Source: Victivallis vadensis (lineage in GTDB: Bacteria; Verrucomicrobiota; Lentisphaeria; Victivallales; Victivallaceae). Taken from it: a stretch of 64,000 nucleotides of DNA. The number at the start of each line of letters is the position of its first letter. Position 1 is the stretch's first letter. This document shows, in pieces, positions 2,190 to 15,317 of this stretch. A program made the translations under genes and the position numbers. The notes under the pieces were generated by a model. That model was given only the letters and a program-made list of their open reading frames with translations, did not search any database and was not told the origin of the DNA. Where the stretch lies: positions 124,001 through 188,000 of the forward strand of contig NZ_QEKH01000004.1 in assembly GCF_003096415.1 (NCBI RefSeq), written 5' to 3'.

Positions 2190-3181
2190 CCCGCTTCGGC
2201 CATCAGCTCCGCCATCAGGCGCAGCCGTTCGAGATGGTCGGACAGGCAGCGGGCGTAGAAAGGATAGCAGTACTGCTCATGGCTGCCGAGGTTGACCAGT
2301 TCCTTGCCGGGCGTCGCGGCAATCCGGGCGACCGTCTCCCGGATCCCGGACTGCGTCAGCAGATTGCTGAAAAATTCCACCGGGATTTCCAGCCACCGGT
2401 TCCCGGAGTCGAAGCGCGCGAACCACTCCCGGCCCGTCCGCTCACGCAGGTTGCGCCAGTACGGTTCGCTCCGGGTGAAACAGCGCATCCCCTGTTCGCG
2501 CAGGAACCGGCGCGCCGCCGGGTCCGCCACGTCGAAAAAGTGGACCAGCACCGGCGGAATCAGCGTCTGTTCCCCGGCGAAGCGCCGGATCTCGGCGGCA
2601 ACGCGCATGTAATGTTCCGGGAGCTTCTCCGGGTAAGCCGCGCCGTAGGGATGTTCCGGAAATTCGCAGTCGGCGTGGAAGGCCAGCCGAAGCCAGCCGG
2701 AATTCTCCTCCCACTCTCCCCGGAACCGGTCCGGAAATCCGGAGAGCCGGAAGGGCTGATGCGCGTTTTCGTAAAAGCAGTTCAAGGTGAACTTCGTGCC
2801 GAACTCCCGGTGGATCTCCCGCAGCGCGGCCAGATAAAAGGAGTCGAAAAGGCTCCGCCGGTTCTCCACGGCAAGCTCGCGAAAGAAAAAGGCGTTGTCG
2901 TCGATGAAGAAGTTGTACCGCCTGCGGGAATTCCGGTCGTAATACGGCGTGACCGACAGCCGTTCGCCGCCGGCCTCCGCCGTGATCTCCTGAAGCTGTT
3001 CCGTCAGCAGCACCGGGGCGGCAAAAAATTCGCCGTCCCGCCGCGCTTCGGCGCCGTTCACCGTAATCCGCCGGTCACGCGGCCCCCTGCCCCGCACCGT
3101 GATCCGCAGTCCCTTCGCCGTTTCAGCGCCGTGTGAATGGTTCAGCAGCTCGCCGTCACCGGGAAAATCGATTCCGAACAT
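2144..3181 (-). CDS. Unknown protein, possibly a deacetylase-like or amidohydrolase-like barrel enzyme
   Basis: A 345-residue protein that I do not recognise with certainty. It has no signal peptide. An N-terminal beta-rich part (about 1-95) is followed by a section with FFIDDNAFFFREL, LNCFYENAHQ, LAFHADCEFPEHPY, PPVLVHFFDV and SHEQYCYPFY. The scattered Asp, His and Glu in strand-like contexts suggest a metal-dependent (beta/alpha) barrel like polysaccharide deacetylases, but the canonical motifs are not clear. GGAGG lies 10 nt before the ATG. It is the last gene of the minus block and follows the metallophosphoesterase by 85 bp, so it may belong with that glycan-processing set. Confidence 0.7.
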   Translation of the reverse strand: MFGIDFPGDGELLNHSHGAETAKGLRITVRGRGPRDRRITVNGAEARRDGEFFAAPVLLTEQLQEITAEAGGERLSVTPYYDRNSRRRYNFFIDDNAFFFRELAVENRRSLFDSFYLAALREIHREFGTKFTLNCFYENAHQPFRLSGFPDRFRGEWEENSGWLRLAFHADCEFPEHPYGAAYPEKLPEHYMRVAAEIRRFAGEQTLIPPVLVHFFDVADPAARRFLREQGMRCFTRSEPYWRNLRERTGREWFARFDSGNRWLEIPVEFFSNLLTQSGIRETVARIAATPGKELVNLGSHEQYCYPFYARCLSDHLERLRLMAELMAEAGYSSVFPAESPESCF

Positions 3182-3266
3182 GATCCGTCATCCTCCGCTC
3201 CCGGTAATATAGCCGGAACGGGCCGCATTGCAAGGGTGCATCTGAAACTTATTTCAGCAGTTCCGG

Positions 3267-4565
3267 TCAGAACTGAAACTCGGCGCTGATCGCACTGCCG
3301 CGCTTCCCGAAAGACTCGCACGGACGGATTTCGACGCGGTAGCGGGTTCCGGGCCGGAATCTGCCGGGCGGCAGCGCGAACGCCGGATTCTCCGCCATCC
3401 TGTCGATGCCGCGGTAATAATCGGTCATGCAGTTCAGCTCGAAACTTTTGCCGGACTTGCCGTCTGCTTCGAGCGGGATGAACTTCATCGCGTAGCCATG
3501 CACGAAATCGTCGTGAACCGCCGCCGGGAACGCGATCACCGGCTTGCCCTCCTTCGTCCCGGAAAACTTGATCCCGGCTTCGCTTCCGGCCGGAAATTCG
3601 GGAGCTTTCCGGGAATCCCGCCGCGCCGCCGTGTAAGTGAAGTTCTCCTTCGACAGCGGCAGTTCGAGCCGCCAGCGTCTGCCGGGCTTGATCTCCCGGC
3701 CGCAATCCAGCGCCATGCGGATGATGTCGATATGATCGGCGTACACATCCACGAACAGCATCTGCGGATACTTCCAGGTGTCGTGCAGCTGTTTCACGTT
3801 GGCGTAATTGCCGCGGCTCAAATAACACAGCGACGAGGTGTTGACCATCGTGAACTCGTCCTGGAATATCGACCGCTCATCCTGCAGCGGATGGTGGGTG
3901 TGCCCGGAGAAATGCACCAGATCCGGCAGTTTGAAATCCCAGACCTTCTTCAGCGAATCGCTGCCCCACTGCCCGCTCTCGGCGACCGTGCCGGAAAGCG
4001 GGTGATGGCTGAATGCGAAAATCGGCTTCCCCGCCGCGCGTTTCCGGGCGGAGGCGACCGCTTCTTTCACAAACTTCTCCGCCCCCTCCTTATAGGTGTT
4101 CTGATTCATCCCCTCCGGTGAAATTGCGATGAAATCGTAGCCGCCGATCACCCGGTGAACATTTGCGTCGGCCGGAAGCCCGAATGCCTTGGCAAACGCG
4201 GCGATCTTCTTTTTCGGATCGTCCTGCGGCGGTGCAAATTCATGGTTCCCCATGATCGAAATCAGTTCCGGCTTTTTCTCGCCGAACACCGAATCGAACG
4301 CCTCCAGAAAGTTATAAAACACCTCCGCGTCGCCGCGTTCCGCGAGGTCGCCGCCGAGCACGACCACATCCACGCCGCGCTGCCGCAGCAGTTCAAAGCC
4401 CCGGCGGGCGTTCTTCAATCCCCAGCTGTCCTTGCTTTTGGGGCATTGGGCGTCGGACAGAATGCCGATACGCAGCTCAGGTTCGGCGGGAGCCGCCGCC
4501 GCATTTCCGTACAGCAGAAACGACATGGCGACTCCGCATGCGAAACGGGAAAAAAACTTGACCAT
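3267..4565 (-). CDS. Secreted calcineurin-like metallophosphoesterase
   Basis: A 432-residue protein. The signal peptide is at about 1-25 (basic start, hydrophobic core, AAAAPAEP cleavage region). The metallophosphoesterase motifs occur in order: GILSDAQ, VVLGGDLAERGD, IMGNHEF, FSHHPLSG and SGHTHHPLQ. These supply the Asp, Asn and His ligands of a dinuclear metal site. A C-terminal beta-rich part of about 150 residues follows and may bind substrate. It probably acts outside the cytoplasmic membrane on a phosphoester. The start at 4565 has GGAG 8 nt upstream; a longer reading to 4652 would lose the signal peptide position. It lies 50 bp downstream of the pseudopilin gene on the same strand. 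Confidence 0.88.
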   Translation of the reverse strand: MVKFFSRFACGVAMSFLLYGNAAAAPAEPELRIGILSDAQCPKSKDSWGLKNARRGFELLRQRGVDVVVLGGDLAERGDAEVFYNFLEAFDSVFGEKKPELISIMGNHEFAPPQDDPKKKIAAFAKAFGLPADANVHRVIGGYDFIAISPEGMNQNTYKEGAEKFVKEAVASARKRAAGKPIFAFSHHPLSGTVAESGQWGSDSLKKVWDFKLPDLVHFSGHTHHPLQDERSIFQDEFTMVNTSSLCYLSRGNYANVKQLHDTWKYPQMLFVDVYADHIDIIRMALDCGREIKPGRRWRLELPLSKENFTYTAARRDSRKAPEFPAGSEAGIKFSGTKEGKPVIAFPAAVHDDFVHGYAMKFIPLEADGKSGKSFELNCMTDYYRGIDRMAENPAFALPPGRFRPGTRYRVEIRPCESFGKRGSAISAEFQF

Positions 4566-5544: not shown

Positions 5545-8379
5545 TTATCGCAGTTTCATGCTTTCGCGTTCCTCCAGTTCAAAGCTCTCCGGGGGTCTCG
5601 GCGGCGCGGCGGGATACGGAGCCGGAGCCGTTTCCGAGGCCCGGATCAATCCGGCGGCATCGAATCCTTTCAGCGCCTCCGCCAGCCGTTTCCCGAACCG
5701 CTCCGGCGTCTCCGGGTCGAGCAGCGCCGCCGCCACCTGACGGCATACGGCGGGATCTCCGTAAGCCGGCTCCGGCATCAGCGGGTCGATCATCGCGGAA
5801 CGCCCCGCCCGGACCGCCTCCGCCAACGCCTTGCCCGAAAATTCCGGGGCGTGCGCCACTGTGCAGTTATAGTATCCGAAAATCCCCTGATGCGTGTCGG
5901 TGCTGCCGGTCACCGCCGGGACCTTGCCGCGTCCCGATTTCCGCCACTTTTCCAGATACTCCACCCGGCGCTCGACCGCGTCCAGCCCCGCGAGGGAAAT
6001 ATCCCCGTACCACAGCTCCGAAAAACCGGTCCCGTAGGTCATCGGGTGATTCAGCTGCACGACCGCACCGAACCCGTCCGCCTGCTCGCGGATCGATTTC
6101 CACGAGAAGCGCTCATCGAGCCGGCGCGGAATCGGATAGACGTTGAGGTGATAGCGCGGCGTCATCGTGATCTCCTGCCCCGCGAACAACCACAGACCGC
6201 AGCCGTTCCGGCGCATGTTCTCCATCAGCCGCAGCGCCCCGGCGACTTCGTCGTGGTCGCTGATCACCAGGAAGTCGAACCCGGCGGCGGGCGCTTCCGC
6301 CAGCAGTCCGGCGGGCGTGGACTGGCCGTCGGAGAAGATCGTGTGCGTATGCACGTCGCCGGTGCGCAGTTCACGGGCCGCCTCGGCGTCCTCCGGGCGC
6401 GGCGCGGGCATCGCGGCGGCGCGCAGCCGGGCGAAACGTTCCGCCGCGCGCCGGGTCAGCGGCTTCCCGGCGAGGATGAATTCCGCAAAGGATTTTCCCA
6501 GTTCGCGATTGCCGTAACCGCACCGGATCACATCCGCGCCACGGCGCACGATCAGGAAATCGTTCGGCAACCCGTTGCGGCTGTGCCAGAACCACGCGAT
6601 TTCCGGGTAGTCGGGAGTGCCCGCGATCAGGCAGTGGCCGAACCGGTCCTTTTCCGCGAACGGAATCACCGGCAGCCCCCGTTCCGATGCGAAATCGAGC
6701 AATCGTTTCCTCATCGGCTCCGGCGCGTCCGGCATCACGACCACCGCGTCGGCCGGATGGCGGAACGCCTCCTCCGGCGTGAGGCGGAACACATGGCGGG
6801 GACGGCTGGAAGCGTAGAGCGACAACAGCCTCCCGGTCTCCATATCGCTTCGCAGCCCGTCGCCGAGCAGGTGACCGCGCCCGGCGTACACGGCATCCGC
6901 CCCGGCGACTTCGGGAGCGGCGAAGGGCGTGCAGTAGGCCGTCATCTCTCCGACCAGCCTTTCCGCATCCGCGACGCTGTCGCAGCAGTAAAGTTCGGCG
7001 TTCACGCAGGGGATGTTGCCCCACGGCATCGAAACCGCACTGAAGATCCGTTCATTCGGACGGCCTCCCCGGCTGTACGCGACGTTGAGCTGCGCCTCGA
7101 AGCCGCGCGTCAGCTCCAGATAGCGGTATTTCGCGGGAATATCCGCCGGAAGCGGCCGGTCCTCAAGCAGCGCCAGCCGGGCTTCGCACTCCGCGATCGC
7201 CTCCGCCACCCGGCCGCCGTTCATGCTGCCGGGCGTGGCGGCGAGCCGCAGAAATTCGATCCCGGAGACCAGTTTCAGGTATCCGGCGGCGCGCCACGGC
7301 GTCAGCTCCGCCCACCGGACCGCGCCGACTTTCCGAAGCAGACCGGCGATCTGCGCGGCGTTGCGCACCACCGTGCCGTAAGGCTTCCCGCCGACATATC
7401 CGGTGAATACGAAGCGCAGCCCGACGGAGCCGAGCCCGGAAAGCTCCGCCAGCGTCACCGTTTCCGTGCCCGGCGGAATCATTTCGCGGCGCAGTTCCCG
7501 GCCGGAAAGGTCCTGAACCGAGAGTTCGGCGCGTTCCAGAAATTCCGGCAGTTCCGGCGCTATCGTCAAGGTCTCCTGCTGTGCCAGGCGGGGGACTTCC
7601 GGGCTCCACACCGCCGCCAGCGAGCGCTCCGGGTTGTCGGCGTCGCTCCGGCAGAGCCGGAAGAGCGGATAGTCCGCCGCCGAGGCGCTGGGCTGCACCG
7701 CCCGGCCGATCGAAACCTTGCGCGGCGGCAGCGCCTTCCCGTCGCGGCGGTCGTAATCGTTGCAGTTGAACTGCATCCGGAACAATCCCTCATTTGCCAG
7801 GTCATAGTCGCCGAATGCACGGTAAGGGATCAGCAGCCTGATCCGGTAGCCCCCGCCGGTGCGTTCGCCGGAAGCGCGGTACGGGATATCCGGCCCGTAG
7901 GCGCTGTCGTAGAGGGTGAAACTGCGGAGCTTCCCCGCCGCGTCCGGCGGCGACAGGATCAACTGGAACCGTTCAAATGCAAGTGTGCCGTTGCCGAATT
8001 TCCTCCCCTCCGGCGCGGCGATGAACAGCTCCACGCTGTCCTGCATCCACAGGTCGACGTTCTTCTCCTTGTCGTTGACCACGTCGGAATCCGTCACGTC
8101 GAAGAAGAAGCAAAGCCCGTCCCGGTTCCAGCCGAAGGTGACCCGCGCGGAAAAATCCTCCCTGCCGCGCCACTGTTCCGCCCGCGTGAACTGCTCCGGC
8201 CGCTCGAATACGAGGGTCTGGGCGTTCTCCGGGGGCTGAAGCCGTTCCGTATAGTCGTCCGGCACCTGAAGGCAGGTCACAGCGGCGGGAGGCCGTTCCA
8301 TATTTTTTCCCCTTTCCGAATTGTCCGCCGCCAGAGTCAGGGCGGCGGAGAACAGCAGCGCGTTCATCCAACCTTTCAT
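5545..8379 (-). CDS. Secreted CBM9-like domain / PHP-domain metal-dependent hydrolase
   Basis: A 944-residue protein. The signal peptide is at 1-18 (MKGWMNALLFSAALTLAA). An N-terminal CBM9-like beta sandwich covers about 40-210 (ARVTFGWNRDGLCFFFDVTD, DSVELFIAAPEG, RIRLLIPYRAFG). A long middle part is not recognised. The PHP-type domain starts near residue 670: VHTHTIFSDG, then VISDHDEV (about 709), LNHPMTY and a late STDTHQG. These match the metal ligands of the PHP family. PHP domains hydrolyse phosphoesters or related bonds; with a carbohydrate-binding module and secretion the target is probably a surface or dietary glycan derivative. The ATG at 8379 has GAGGAA upstream and lies 10 bp after the GH gene, so the two are cotranscribed. 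Confidence 0.85.
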   Translation of the reverse strand: MKGWMNALLFSAALTLAADNSERGKNMERPPAAVTCLQVPDDYTERLQPPENAQTLVFERPEQFTRAEQWRGREDFSARVTFGWNRDGLCFFFDVTDSDVVNDKEKNVDLWMQDSVELFIAAPEGRKFGNGTLAFERFQLILSPPDAAGKLRSFTLYDSAYGPDIPYRASGERTGGGYRIRLLIPYRAFGDYDLANEGLFRMQFNCNDYDRRDGKALPPRKVSIGRAVQPSASAADYPLFRLCRSDADNPERSLAAVWSPEVPRLAQQETLTIAPELPEFLERAELSVQDLSGRELRREMIPPGTETVTLAELSGLGSVGLRFVFTGYVGGKPYGTVVRNAAQIAGLLRKVGAVRWAELTPWRAAGYLKLVSGIEFLRLAATPGSMNGGRVAEAIAECEARLALLEDRPLPADIPAKYRYLELTRGFEAQLNVAYSRGGRPNERIFSAVSMPWGNIPCVNAELYCCDSVADAERLVGEMTAYCTPFAAPEVAGADAVYAGRGHLLGDGLRSDMETGRLLSLYASSRPRHVFRLTPEEAFRHPADAVVVMPDAPEPMRKRLLDFASERGLPVIPFAEKDRFGHCLIAGTPDYPEIAWFWHSRNGLPNDFLIVRRGADVIRCGYGNRELGKSFAEFILAGKPLTRRAAERFARLRAAAMPAPRPEDAEAARELRTGDVHTHTIFSDGQSTPAGLLAEAPAAGFDFLVISDHDEVAGALRLMENMRRNGCGLWLFAGQEITMTPRYHLNVYPIPRRLDERFSWKSIREQADGFGAVVQLNHPMTYGTGFSELWYGDISLAGLDAVERRVEYLEKWRKSGRGKVPAVTGSTDTHQGIFGYYNCTVAHAPEFSGKALAEAVRAGRSAMIDPLMPEPAYGDPAVCRQVAAALLDPETPERFGKRLAEALKGFDAAGLIRASETAPAPYPAAPPRPPESFELEERESMKLR

Positions 8380-12906: not shown

Positions 12907-13365
12907 TCATCTCAAACCGCGAAGAAAAGAGCGGCGCTTCAGGCGGTTCAGCAGATCGCGCCCAAGCAGGAACGGCAGCCGCAGCCAGCGGCAGCGCCAC
13001 CAGAAAAAGACGTAACAGCGATATCCCCGGCTCCGGCGGCAGTCGACATACCGCTTTCCCCGGTAAAAGCCCGTCAGGACCCCGACGATCATCGCGTCGG
13101 TCACACCGCGCTCCCGGCAGCGGCGGTTGTCGCCGCAGGTCACGTACCCCTCCGGCAGCACTTGCACGATGCGGTGCAGCACCAGTTGCCCGGAGGGACG
13201 GCGGTAGAGCGGCACCTCGTATCGGCGCAGCCGCCCGGTACGGCGTTCGATGCAGACCCGGTCCCTGCCCTGCCGGAGCATCGGCTCCATACTGTCGCCG
13301 CGGGTCAGGCCGGTATAAAAGCCGAAACGGGCAACGGCTTCCTCCGCCGAAAGCGGCTCACTCAT
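12907..13365 (-). CDS. S24/S26-type (signal peptidase-like) peptidase of the RiPP-like cassette
   Basis: A 152-residue protein. The motif GDSMEPML (catalytic Ser at about 25), VLHRIV (His at about 63) and TCGDN (about 74-78) follow the order of SipW/Sec11-type signal peptidases, in which a Ser-His pair replaces Ser-Lys. There is no N-terminal membrane anchor; the C-terminal 50 residues are rich in Arg, Trp and Phe and could associate with membrane. It overlaps the PqqD-like gene by 8 nt and ends the cassette. The likely job is to cleave the leader of the two precursor-like peptides, or process them on export; this comes from context, not from a known homologue. Confidence 0.75.
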   Translation of the reverse strand: MSEPLSAEEAVARFGFYTGLTRGDSMEPMLRQGRDRVCIERRTGRLRRYEVPLYRRPSGQLVLHRIVQVLPEGYVTCGDNRRCRERGVTDAMIVGVLTGFYRGKRYVDCRRSRGYRCYVFFWWRCRWLRLPFLLGRDLLNRLKRRSFLRGLR

Positions 13366-13633
13366 CGATCAGGCCGTTCTTCCGCAAGAGTTCAAGGAAA
13401 GCGGCGACGTGTTCCGCCGCCTCGGCCCGGCCGAGCCCGTACCGGGTGGCGCACTCCTCCGCCAGCTCCGCTTCGGCGCTTCCCCGCTCCAGAAGGCGCC
13501 ACAGGAAAGCACCGGACGAATTCAGCCGGATCATCCCGTTGAAACCGCGGGCCGCCGGGCCGACCGCAACCACGACCGGAGTCCCGGCGACCTCCCGCAA
13601 CATATAACCGTCTTTGATCTTCATTATCGTCAT
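13358..13633 (-). CDS. PqqD-like protein (RiPP recognition element)
   Basis: A 91-residue protein with the PqqD fold pattern: an N-terminal beta hairpin (YMLREVAGTPVVVA), the strand-turn LNSSGAFLWRLLERG, and C-terminal helices (EECATRYGLGRAEAAEHVAAFLELLRKNGLI). PqqD domains bind the leader peptide of a ribosomally made precursor and present it to tailoring enzymes. Its start overlaps the stop of the HPr-kinase-like gene (ATGA at 13633-13630); a second in-frame ATG is at 13624. The precursors with a YxxPxL leader motif upstream fit its usual ligand. Confidence 0.85.
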   Translation of the reverse strand: MTIMKIKDGYMLREVAGTPVVVAVGPAARGFNGMIRLNSSGAFLWRLLERGSAEAELAEECATRYGLGRAEAAEHVAAFLELLRKNGLIDE

Positions 13634-14322
13634 CTCATCGCTTCACAGGCAACATCGGCCGCTTCCGGGTCGGGAGTGCATCCCAGCCGGTAAAAAGGCA
13701 CCGCACGGGCCAGCCGGTCGCAGAGCGCCAGCAACCGGTCCATCTCCTCCGGTTCTTCCGGGCGCAGCGTCTGGTTCAGGATCACCGGCAACGCCTCCGC
13801 CCCGGAGATCCGCTCAATCCGGTTCACACCGGCCCGTTCCAGCACGGCGACGGCACGCAGCGGCACGGCGATGCGGTTCTGCAATCCCTCCTTGCCGCAC
13901 CACGGCGTCCCGCAGGCGCGGAACTCCCCGCCGGCCAGCCGCAGCAGCGGCTTGTCATCGTTGACCATCACCGCGGCGGGGCCGAACTTCCGCCGCCACA
14001 GCGCCGCATGGGTGGACTTGCCGGTGCCGGAGGGAGCGGTGAAACCGTAGGCACGCCCTCCCACCGCGACCACCGAGGCGTGAAATACCATCCCATCCCG
14101 GCGCAGCAGCTCCCGGCATATCTTCCGGTACAGCAGCGTAAGTTCGCAAAGCGGCGGCGGCATGCCGGTCATTTCGCACTCCGCCGCCATCTCCGAAGCG
14201 GAATAGGCAATTGCAATTCCGTCGCCCGAAGCCAGATAGTCGCGGCAGAACTGCTCCGTCGCGGGATACCGCGCATAAAGCGTAAAAGCGAGATCCGCCA
14301 GAGTGCATGTAAACTTCGACAT
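13630..14322 (-). CDS. HPr kinase-like (HPrK/lasso-K-type) protein of the RiPP-like cassette
   Basis: A 230-residue protein. HASVVAVGGRAYGF leads into the Walker A loop APSGTGKST (about 95-104), followed by VMVNDDKPLLRL and the HPrK-like stretch GTPWCGKEGLQNR. This is the compact HPr-kinase-like family found next to PqqD-like proteins in peptide clusters, where some members phosphorylate the precursor peptide. True HPrK has a longer N-terminal domain and partners with a phosphotransferase system, not seen here. It lies downstream of the two peptide genes and an intervening terminator. A Ser or Thr in the shared VITTSGT stretch of the peptides would be a plausible target (inference). Confidence 0.82.
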   Translation of the reverse strand: MSKFTCTLADLAFTLYARYPATEQFCRDYLASGDGIAIAYSASEMAAECEMTGMPPPLCELTLLYRKICRELLRRDGMVFHASVVAVGGRAYGFTAPSGTGKSTHAALWRRKFGPAAVMVNDDKPLLRLAGGEFRACGTPWCGKEGLQNRIAVPLRAVAVLERAGVNRIERISGAEALPVILNQTLRPEEPEEMDRLLALCDRLARAVPFYRLGCTPDPEAADVACEAMR

Positions 14323-14352
14323 CTTCCGATTTCCGCCGTTTTCTTATTCTCT

Positions 14353-14393
14353 AAAAAAATCACATCGGCCCGCAGCCGGAACCGATATGATTT
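14353..14393 (-). terminator. Terminator/attenuator between the second peptide gene and the HPrK-like gene
   Basis: Minus-strand arms AAATCATATCGG (14393-14382) and CCGATGTGATTT (14368-14357) pair at 11 of 12 positions across a 13-nt loop, followed directly by TTTTTTT (14359-14353). It lies 18 bp after the stop of the second peptide gene, and would keep peptide transcripts more abundant than enzyme transcripts. Confidence 0.75.
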
Positions 14394-14410
14394 CCGCCGG
14401 GAAAAGTCCG

Positions 14411-14554
14411 TCACATTCCTACGTCATAATCTCCGCCCGGCTTCCAGCCGGTATCAATGTCCACGCCGACATCGGTTCCGCTGGTGGTGATCACATCCCT
14501 GACCGAAAAATCGATCACTTCAAGAACGGGTTTCTGGTAAATCTCTTTTTCCAT
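14411..14554 (-). CDS. RiPP precursor-like peptide 1 (47 aa)
   Basis: A 47-residue ORF, too short for ordinary calling. The first 27 residues are nearly identical to those of peptide 2 (I/L exchange at position 5): a leader with YQKPVLEV (residues 6-13), FSVRDV and TTSGT. YxxPxL is the motif bound by PqqD-like elements in several peptide families. The last 20 residues differ and are acidic, with DIDTGWKPGGDYD. A W-x-PGGD feature is kept in both. AAGGAG lies upstream of the ATG, and the gene has its own TATAAT box. The mature product is unknown. Confidence 0.82.
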   Translation of the reverse strand: MEKEIYQKPVLEVIDFSVRDVITTSGTDVGVDIDTGWKPGGDYDVGM

Positions 14555-14619
14555 GCGCTGCTCCTTGCATTGCCGGTTCCGGCCCCGACCTGCCGCCCTT
14601 CGGCAGTACTAAGCCTACA

Positions 14620-14625
14620 ATTATA
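14620..14625 (-). promoter_or_regulatory. -10 box of precursor-like peptide gene 1
   Basis: TATAAT on the minus strand within a 10-bp sequence, ACAATTATAC on the plus strand, also found upstream of peptide gene 2. It is 66 bp before the ATG. I see no clear -35 box. Confidence 0.45.
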
Positions 14626-14668
14626 CAATTTATTATTATACTATAAAATCATGTATCATACAAGTGCC

Positions 14669-14700
14669 GAATCATTGAAAGAAAGATTTTTTCAAGATTC
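14669..14700 (-). other. Stem-loop after peptide gene 2
   Basis: GAATC-TTGAAA pairs with TTTCAA-T-GATTC (11 bp, one bulged base). It begins 7 bp after the stop of peptide gene 2. No T-tract follows, so an RNA-stabilising or processing hairpin is as likely as a weak terminator. Confidence 0.35.
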
Positions 14701-14706
14701 CGCGCC

Positions 14707-14847
14707 TTACAGCTCGATATCAATATCCCCGCCCGGCTCCCACGGATCGACACTCGGATCGAATCCCGTGCCGCTGGTGGTGATCACATCCCTGACCGAA
14801 AAATCGATCACCTCAAGAACCGGTTTCTGATAGAGTTCCTTTTCCAT
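14707..14847 (-). CDS. RiPP precursor-like peptide 2 (46 aa)
   Basis: A 46-residue ORF paralogous to peptide 1. The N-terminal 27 residues differ from peptide 1 at a single position, and the DNA is also very similar there. The C-terminal 19 residues are different: GFDPSVDPWEPGGDIDIEL, acidic, again with W-x-PGGD. AAAGGTG precedes the ATG. A conserved leader with a variable tail is the signature of a duplicated precursor gene. It is the first gene of the cassette, so the transcript order is peptide 2, peptide 1, HPrK-like, PqqD-like, peptidase. Confidence 0.82.
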   Translation of the reverse strand: MEKELYQKPVLEVIDFSVRDVITTSGTGFDPSVDPWEPGGDIDIEL

Positions 14848-14916
14848 GATAATTCACCTTTCCATTATAAGAGTTTCCGCTGTCATTGTTCCCGGTCAAC
14901 TTGGAAACAATCGACA

Positions 14917-14922
14917 ATTATA
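14917..14922 (-). promoter_or_regulatory. -10 box of precursor-like peptide gene 2
   Basis: TATAAT on the minus strand in the same 10-bp context as upstream of peptide gene 1, 70 bp before the ATG. The duplication unit therefore included the promoter as well as the coding sequence. Confidence 0.45.
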
Positions 14923-14968
14923 CATAATATTATTATGTCATAAATCTCCGGCCGCGCAAGAGGGAAAA

Positions 14969-15248
14969 TCAGCCGGAAACAGTTTTTTTCAAAAAAAACA
15001 GGTAGATCTCATAGAAAGGCAGCGCGGCCGCCACGATGACGAATCCGCCGATCGGGAACACGGAACGGTAATCCTGATGCAGCAGGTCGAGCGTCTTGCC
15101 GGGTCCGGCCCCATCTCCATCGAACCGGCCGCGAGCACGATTCCCGCCGCCGCAGAGAACCGGGCGAACAGCCCGTGCGGCAGCAGCCGCGAGCCGAGCG
15201 GCGCGGTCAACGTGAAAAGCTGCTTATTGACAAAAAACAGGTTCCATG
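14969..15248 (-). pseudogene. Frameshifted remnant of the C-terminal end of an MFS-like membrane protein
   Basis: One minus frame gives NLFFVNKQLFTLTAPLGSRL..FARFSAAAGIVLAAGS; after GGGCCGGACC the reading continues in another frame as GKTLDLLHQDY, then SVFPIGGFVIVAAALPFYEI with a hydrophobic C-terminal helix and a stop at 14971-14969. A stop codon lies just upstream and there is no start. The pattern of loop, aromatic segment and terminal helix fits a major-facilitator transporter tail. It follows the membrane protein gene at 15318 and abuts the peptide promoter. Confidence 0.55.
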
Positions 15249-15317
15249 ATCATTTCCGCCGTTTCACAACCCGTTTTCGGCAAAACTGGAACAGAGGGAA
15301 AAGAAAGGGCGGCGACT

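Follow-up and report, generated by a model that had tools for sequence, protein, structure and literature searches.

A candidate linear phosphopeptide cassette in Victivallis vadensis that resembles linear polyphosphorylated peptide clusters

What can be made from a pair of short peptides with nearly identical leaders and unlike acidic tails, when the adjoining genes encode a kinase-like, a PqqD-like and a signal-peptidase-like protein and no enzyme of a known ring-forming type? The question is raised by a five-gene cassette of Victivallis vadensis (12907-14847, minus strand) in the window, by which we mean the whole 64,000-nucleotide stretch analyzed here (G000:C4:124001-188000, from a source genome of 5.2 Mb in 87 contigs). 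Our reading, to which we give a probability of about 0.78, is that the cassette would make two linear, leader-released phosphopeptides and would be a divergent system of the linear polyphosphorylated peptide (LPP) kind. The original prediction described five open reading frames on this strand, with overlaps of 4 nucleotides between the kinase and PqqD genes and 8 nucleotides between the PqqD and S26-like genes, and all of this was confirmed (Table 1). The claim that no ring-forming maturase lies nearby was also upheld: none of the genome's 35 radical SAM genes falls in the window, and Pfam scans of 11 neighbouring genes, which covered ATP-grasp and asparagine synthetase, found none.

Table 1. 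Features of the cassette and its upstream regions, in window coordinates
Feature	Coordinates	Strand	Details
pepA, precursor-like peptide, 46 aa	14707..14847	-	leader MEKELYQKPVLEVIDFSVRDVITTS, tail GTGFDPSVDPWEPGGDIDIEL; predicted phosphosite Ser25
pepB, precursor-like peptide, 47 aa	14411..14554	-	leader as pepA, tail GTDVGVDIDTGWKPGGDYDVGM; predicted phosphosite Ser25
PEPCK/HPrK superfamily kinase, LppK-like	13630..14322	-	Walker A APSGTGKST, H81, DDK 122-124, GTPWCGK 138-144
Discrete PqqD-type RRE, LppB/B1-like, 91 aa	13358..13633	-	N38 invariant in family
S26-like (archaeal/ER-type signal peptidase) predicted leader peptidase, 152 aa	12907..13365	-	S25, H64, D79 (GDN)
Promoter-like sites 5' of pepB	14620..14659	-	10/12 and 9/12 consensus matches only; AT-rich stretch
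AT-rich region 5' of pepA, candidate promoter	14880..14960	-	ATAATAATA..TGTATAATTGT common to region 5' of pepB

The two peptides are identical at 26 of their first 27 residues (L5/I5 being the difference), differ in their acidic tails and both keep W-x-PGGD, as had been claimed. Their 81-nucleotide leader segments differ at nine sites, eight of which are third codon positions, indicating that the leader protein sequence is under purifying selection, while the tails diverge. A profile of 29 peptides detected the precursor family in each of the 20 kinase-bearing genomes searched, at 1-14 copies per genome. These precursors have a conserved N-terminal part with a YxxP leader (consensus Y..P.[ML]EV..FE.EDVITTS) and a variable C-terminus, with tails mostly of 5-33 residues in which E, D, G and P are abundant. 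The serine at the position of pepA S25 is the sole invariant residue (77 of 77 aligned peptides, never Thr); Asp is found five residues before it in 76 of 77, Ile, Val or Leu three residues before it in 77 of 77 and Phe nine residues before it in 75 of 77, and the spacing from the leader Tyr to this Ser is 19 in 68 of the 71 peptides measured. Literature searches under DVITTS or SynChlorMet found no papers.

Consensus matches upstream of pepB suggest that it has a promoter of its own. The promoter scan made no call in the AT-rich region upstream of pepA, and the similarity between the pepA and pepB upstream regions, taken over the whole regions, is no higher than in shuffles. Between pepA and the gene for a 612-aa membrane protein there is a hydrophobic, coding-like stretch on the minus strand (14969-15250; ..SVFPIGGFVIVAAALPFYEIYLFFLKK), with no intact start and in two frames, which looks like a gene remnant.

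By sequence the window kinase matches no Pfam family above cut-off, and its matches to the NCBIfam models ScmC (6e-6, 25.7 bits, against a cut-off of 125 bits) and HprK_rel_A are weak. An AlphaFold2 model computed with 43 homologues as input (pLDDT 95.6) superposes over its full length on the ATP-PEPCK 1j3b (Z 12.8, 211 residues, rmsd 3.6) and, through residues 76-230, on the HPr kinase 1ko7 (Z 11.4, 117 residues), although the PEPCK/HPrK fold of this model is by itself no proof of protein kinase activity. Residues H81, S98, G101, K102, T104, D123 and P140 do not vary across 85 homologues. The PqqD-like protein belongs to Pfam PF05402 (E 1.4e-15), and its N38, invariant in 68 of 68 homologues, aligns with N33 of LppB, which holds the leader Pro (PMC13381572). 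At the position of the Tyr-binding D70 of LppB the window protein has His75, and 60 of the 68 relatives have Asp. The S26-like protein matches the NCBIfam archaeal signal peptidase I model weakly (2.6e-5), with S25, H64 and D79 present in all 54 homologues. Overall, the active-site residues of the cassette proteins are conserved almost without exception (54-85 homologues).

A scan of 84,980 species genomes returned 360 kinase relatives, and the analysis used the best 80 of them. Nearly all of these 80 come from gut Clostridia, and the others include a few Bacteroidales, a Synergistaceae MAG and Solobacterium. Neighbourhood clustering of the same 80 gave p-K-D-S-T-N as the commonest gene order (peptide, kinase, PqqD, S26, ABC exporter and NTP transferase), present whole or in part in most of them; by Pfam, T is an ABC exporter (PF00664/PF00005) and N an uncharacterised nucleotidyltransferase (PF14907). 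Near the kinase we find PqqD in 65 of 79 testable loci, S26 in 52 of 74, ABC in 49 of 67 and NTase in 34 of 58. Because kinase relatives recur with a common gene order, the cassette is not a chance array. The window cassette has no T or N gene beside it and is not a complete set: an ABC exporter is usual among its relatives, and many of them have an NTP transferase too. As an NTase partner in the source genome we considered the only good candidate, on C34, and rejected it (it is unlinked and lies among polysaccharide genes). A mobile origin of the cassette was likewise set aside, with only weak plasmid and phage relatives and no PHROG match; a search of plasmids for LppB-like genes found none. 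Separate transfers into three Victivallota genomes were also rejected: the kinase tree scatters these genomes, but a single clade is acceptable (p-AU 0.31).

Peptide and kinase occur together at the level of whole genomes. Within the host's order the peptide is present in 3 of 137 genomes, exactly the three with a close kinase relative (P 2.4e-6), and a fourth kinase match, in genome G061, belongs to a SynChlorMet cassette; in the family of Ruminococcus flavefaciens the peptide is present in 12 of 148 genomes, all 12 of them among the 23 with the kinase (P 9e-12). These P values assume independent genomes and are therefore overstated. The original prediction tied the peptides to a PqqD/HPrK context, and our search found no genome with a peptide and without the kinase. 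In Clostridia, precursors far outnumber cassettes and many copies are distant from one, so the context is genome-wide and not always local.

The closest described system is that of the LPP clusters, published from Bacilli by Popov et al. in May 2026, in which lppA-K-B-S-D-N encode a precursor, an HprK-like kinase, an RRE, an SpI-like peptidase, an exporter and an NTP transferase in Bacillota (PMC13381572). LppK places several phosphates on core Ser3 only (S3A, S3T and S3Y are dead), LppS (S29, H68, D93) removes the leader in an RRE-dependent manner, and the end product and biological role are unknown (PMC13381572). The gene set is the same here, the p-K-D-S-T-N order of the relatives being that of lppA-K-B-S-D-N. 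Common to both are the YxxP leader, variable tails, one fully conserved Ser downstream of the leader motif, a discrete RRE, a kinase that is HprK-like in fold and active site, and, in the relatives, an MsbA-like exporter and NTP transferase; both do without a cyclase, and in neither does the cluster include a lasso cyclase or B2 peptidase. An archaeal-type SpI-like Ser/His/Asp leader peptidase is likewise common to the two, predicted from sequence in our case.

The two also differ. The LPP leader consensus is YxxPxVLxHQxIxFETxxS (PMC13381572), and here HQ and the FET before the cut are missing, leaving YxxP and the final Ser in common; the RRE is no closer to LppB than to lasso RREs, with the family RRE profile ranking TbiB1, TfuB1 and PbaB1 (6e-8 to 1e-6) above LppB (7e-4). 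Given the different leader consensus and an RRE profile nearer to lasso RREs, we call the window family LPP-like, not a proven member. Tails are mostly shorter here, precursors are scattered over the genome beside secreted proteins, and the window copy has no adjacent exporter or NTase. LPP is called Bacillota-restricted in PMC13381572, whereas the present family occurs in gut Clostridia, Victivallota, Bacteroidales and a Synergistaceae genome; the words Clostridia, Ruminococc-, Lachnospir-, Lentisphaer-, secreted and surface are absent from the main text of that paper. The notion of a minimal RiPP defined by a kinase and a leader peptidase has good support in conservation, gene order, co-occurrence and the LPP match. 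The implied undescribed class does not stand, since LPP clusters with the same gene set are already published (PMC13381572).

By analogy with LPP, the PqqD-type RRE would bind the YQKPVL leader motif of pepA and pepB, and the kinase would phosphorylate the invariant Ser25, perhaps adding more than one phosphate to that residue in the manner of LppK. The RRE would also present the precursor to the S26-like peptidase, which would remove the leader. We place the cut, on inference, probably at DVI/TTS, because the Ser is taken to be core residue 3 as in LPP, so that phosphoserine would be the third residue of the core. As the scheme has no cyclase or radical SAM step, the product would be linear and very acidic. 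Export might be provided by an ABC transporter encoded elsewhere, for example in the C23 cassette of the same genome, and the peptide may act extracellularly alongside surface proteins.

Several other origins for the cassette have to be weighed against this scheme. That the short open reading frames are spurious and the trio acts on some unrelated substrate would be a natural suspicion in a GC-rich window with many spurious reading frames, but it is refuted by the purifying selection on the leader between the two copies, the 78 homologous peptides with their invariant Ser (77 of 77 aligned) and the perfect co-occurrence of peptide and kinase, and we regard its probability as negligible. A lasso system, with cyclase and B2 peptidase encoded elsewhere in the genome and the tails closing a G1-D9 or G1-D7 ring, would account for the YxxPxL leader, PqqD and HPrK-like genes found also in paeninodin-type clusters, and for window tails in which the first residue is G and position 7 or 9 is Asp (GTGFDPSVD, GTDVGVDID). 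Paeninodin-type clusters share with the present family a YxxP/WxxP leader, a PqqD-type RRE, an HPrK-like kinase, an NTP transferase and an ABC exporter; here, unlike in those clusters, there is no macrolactam cyclase in the cluster, an S26-like peptidase stands in place of the transglutaminase-like B2, and the tails are often too short. The source genome has no match to PF13471, the lasso leader peptidase family, and 20 family genomes have none over cut-off, many relatives' tails have 5-7 residues (NELDPV, DPELPPQ), too short for a lasso, and around the best 80 of the 360 loci no cyclase-like, asparagine-synthetase-like or radical SAM neighbour cluster recurs. With PF13471 absent and so many tails this short, ring closure between G1 and D7 or D9 is rejected as largely refuted, and a lasso product is very improbable.

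Unlikely, too, is descent from a cassette of the SynChlorMet type whose radical SAM enzymes have been lost, so that the kinase and PqqD would be leftover helpers of a maturase no longer there. ScmC is the nearest NCBIfam model of the kinases, the host's order contains a true SynChlorMet cassette (L096), and in one relative (L095) a radical SAM/SPASM gene adjoins K, D and S; yet across dozens of Clostridia loci with intact catalytic residues the usual arrangement has no radical SAM gene, and the window kinase reaches about a fifth of the ScmC cut-off. SynChlorMet systems (TIGR04248-TIGR04251) have an HPrK-like ScmC and a PqqD-like ScmD, with S26-like and NTase genes nearby in the L096 copy, and differ from the window cassette in their radical SAM proteins ScmE and ScmF, the window kinase and PqqD lying far under the family cut-offs. 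The HPr-rel-A system (TIGR04352, TIGR04353) similarly pairs an HprK-related kinase with a PqqD-family protein, but the window proteins score below its cut-offs (14.8 vs 200 bits; 27.8 vs 35 bits). Two observations belong to these loci themselves. L096 (G061:C405), from the host's own family of bacteria, has ScmF at 1.6e-168 together with S26-like, HPrK-like, PqqD-like and NTP transferase genes. L095 encodes at 6495-7358 a 287-aa protein that joins a precursor-like leader to a Cys-rich part and a region of intein/Hint-like character; its gene adjoins the radical SAM/SPASM gene and the K, D and S genes.

As to function, the LPP-like chemistry is compatible with peptides that are phosphorylated, trimmed and exported as accessories of surface proteins and are not free natural products, their tails binding, capping or tethering the large secreted protein encoded just upstream; we consider this a serious possibility, if at somewhat below even odds. 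Of the 88 Clostridia peptides in 20 genomes, 38 begin 15-168 bp downstream of a gene whose product ends in a shared C-terminal domain, where chance would give about 0.01 per genome. A same-strand gene ends no more than 120 bp upstream of 61 of 79 distinct peptides, and 41 of 57 unlabelled upstream genes look secreted, compared with 35% of controls (by a crude hydropathy test). Six loci of the host's order consist of a giant repeat protein ending in -LA, then the peptide, then the kinase, and in two operons the C-terminus of a small lipoprotein is that of the peptide (L133, PIELPLVPLR; L142, DENEWA). Against this, no gene for a secreted protein immediately precedes the window pair, the peptides occur in several genomes that have no copy of the C-terminal domain, some of the linkage is contributed by Ruminococcus genomes that are close relatives, and of 53 pairs only 2-3 share a tail, a number not clearly exceeding that in shuffles. 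The idea that peptides in general mimic the tail of the protein upstream was accordingly rejected (two strong pairs in 53, the count above threshold being within shuffles). The lipoproteins of L133 (about 3000-3600) and L142 (2980-3560) have low-complexity linkers, and their C-termini repeat the tail of the neighbouring precursor.

The shared C-terminal domain, of about 110 aa, ends large secreted proteins of gut Clostridia (LRR, GLUG, PKD or CAP-like) in one or two copies with the pattern ..SYVYRVL....L..KALYLY..AAe.Y (for example, L068 4484-4873, L129, L137 and L144). There are 92 terminal copies in 12 of the 20 genomes, 38 of them followed directly by a peptide; an Acetatifactor-type genome (G143) has 43 copies, none of which is followed by a detected peptide. 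By sequence the domain has no Pfam or PDB match. Its model (pLDDT 93.1) is a beta sandwich with C-terminal helices, for which a PDB comparison gave nothing under E 0.001 and weak Ig-like matches only.

Giant proteins also accompany other cassettes of the host genome and order. Two further cassettes of the same genome show this. On C23 (L088 1-8642) the large protein has 1647 aa or more and is accompanied by a 35-aa YERPEL peptide together with K, D, T and an S26-like gene; on C5 (L089 8660-18000) it has 2669 aa or more, and its companions are a YETPAL peptide, K and D. The C23 and C5 kinases have only 20-25% identity to the window kinase. Similar sets, with a giant -LA repeat protein, a YxxPxL peptide and kinase/PqqD genes, are found at L094, L179, L188 and L189. 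We advance tentatively, at well short of even odds, the broader possibility of a separate phosphopeptide RiPP branch that crosses phyla, in which a single cassette would act in trans on many precursors, every one of them encoded immediately downstream of a large protein that is secreted or at the surface, and the exported phosphopeptide would be a ligand, cap or tether of that protein and not a diffusible antibiotic.

If the LPP-like reading is right, the gene logic of LPP would extend to gut Clostridia and to other phyla, with a phosphosite predicted from its invariance in 77 peptides and with precursors tied to large secreted proteins. Cultured Ruminococcus flavefaciens, with 14 precursors in one strain, would then allow a direct test of the role of linear phosphopeptides.
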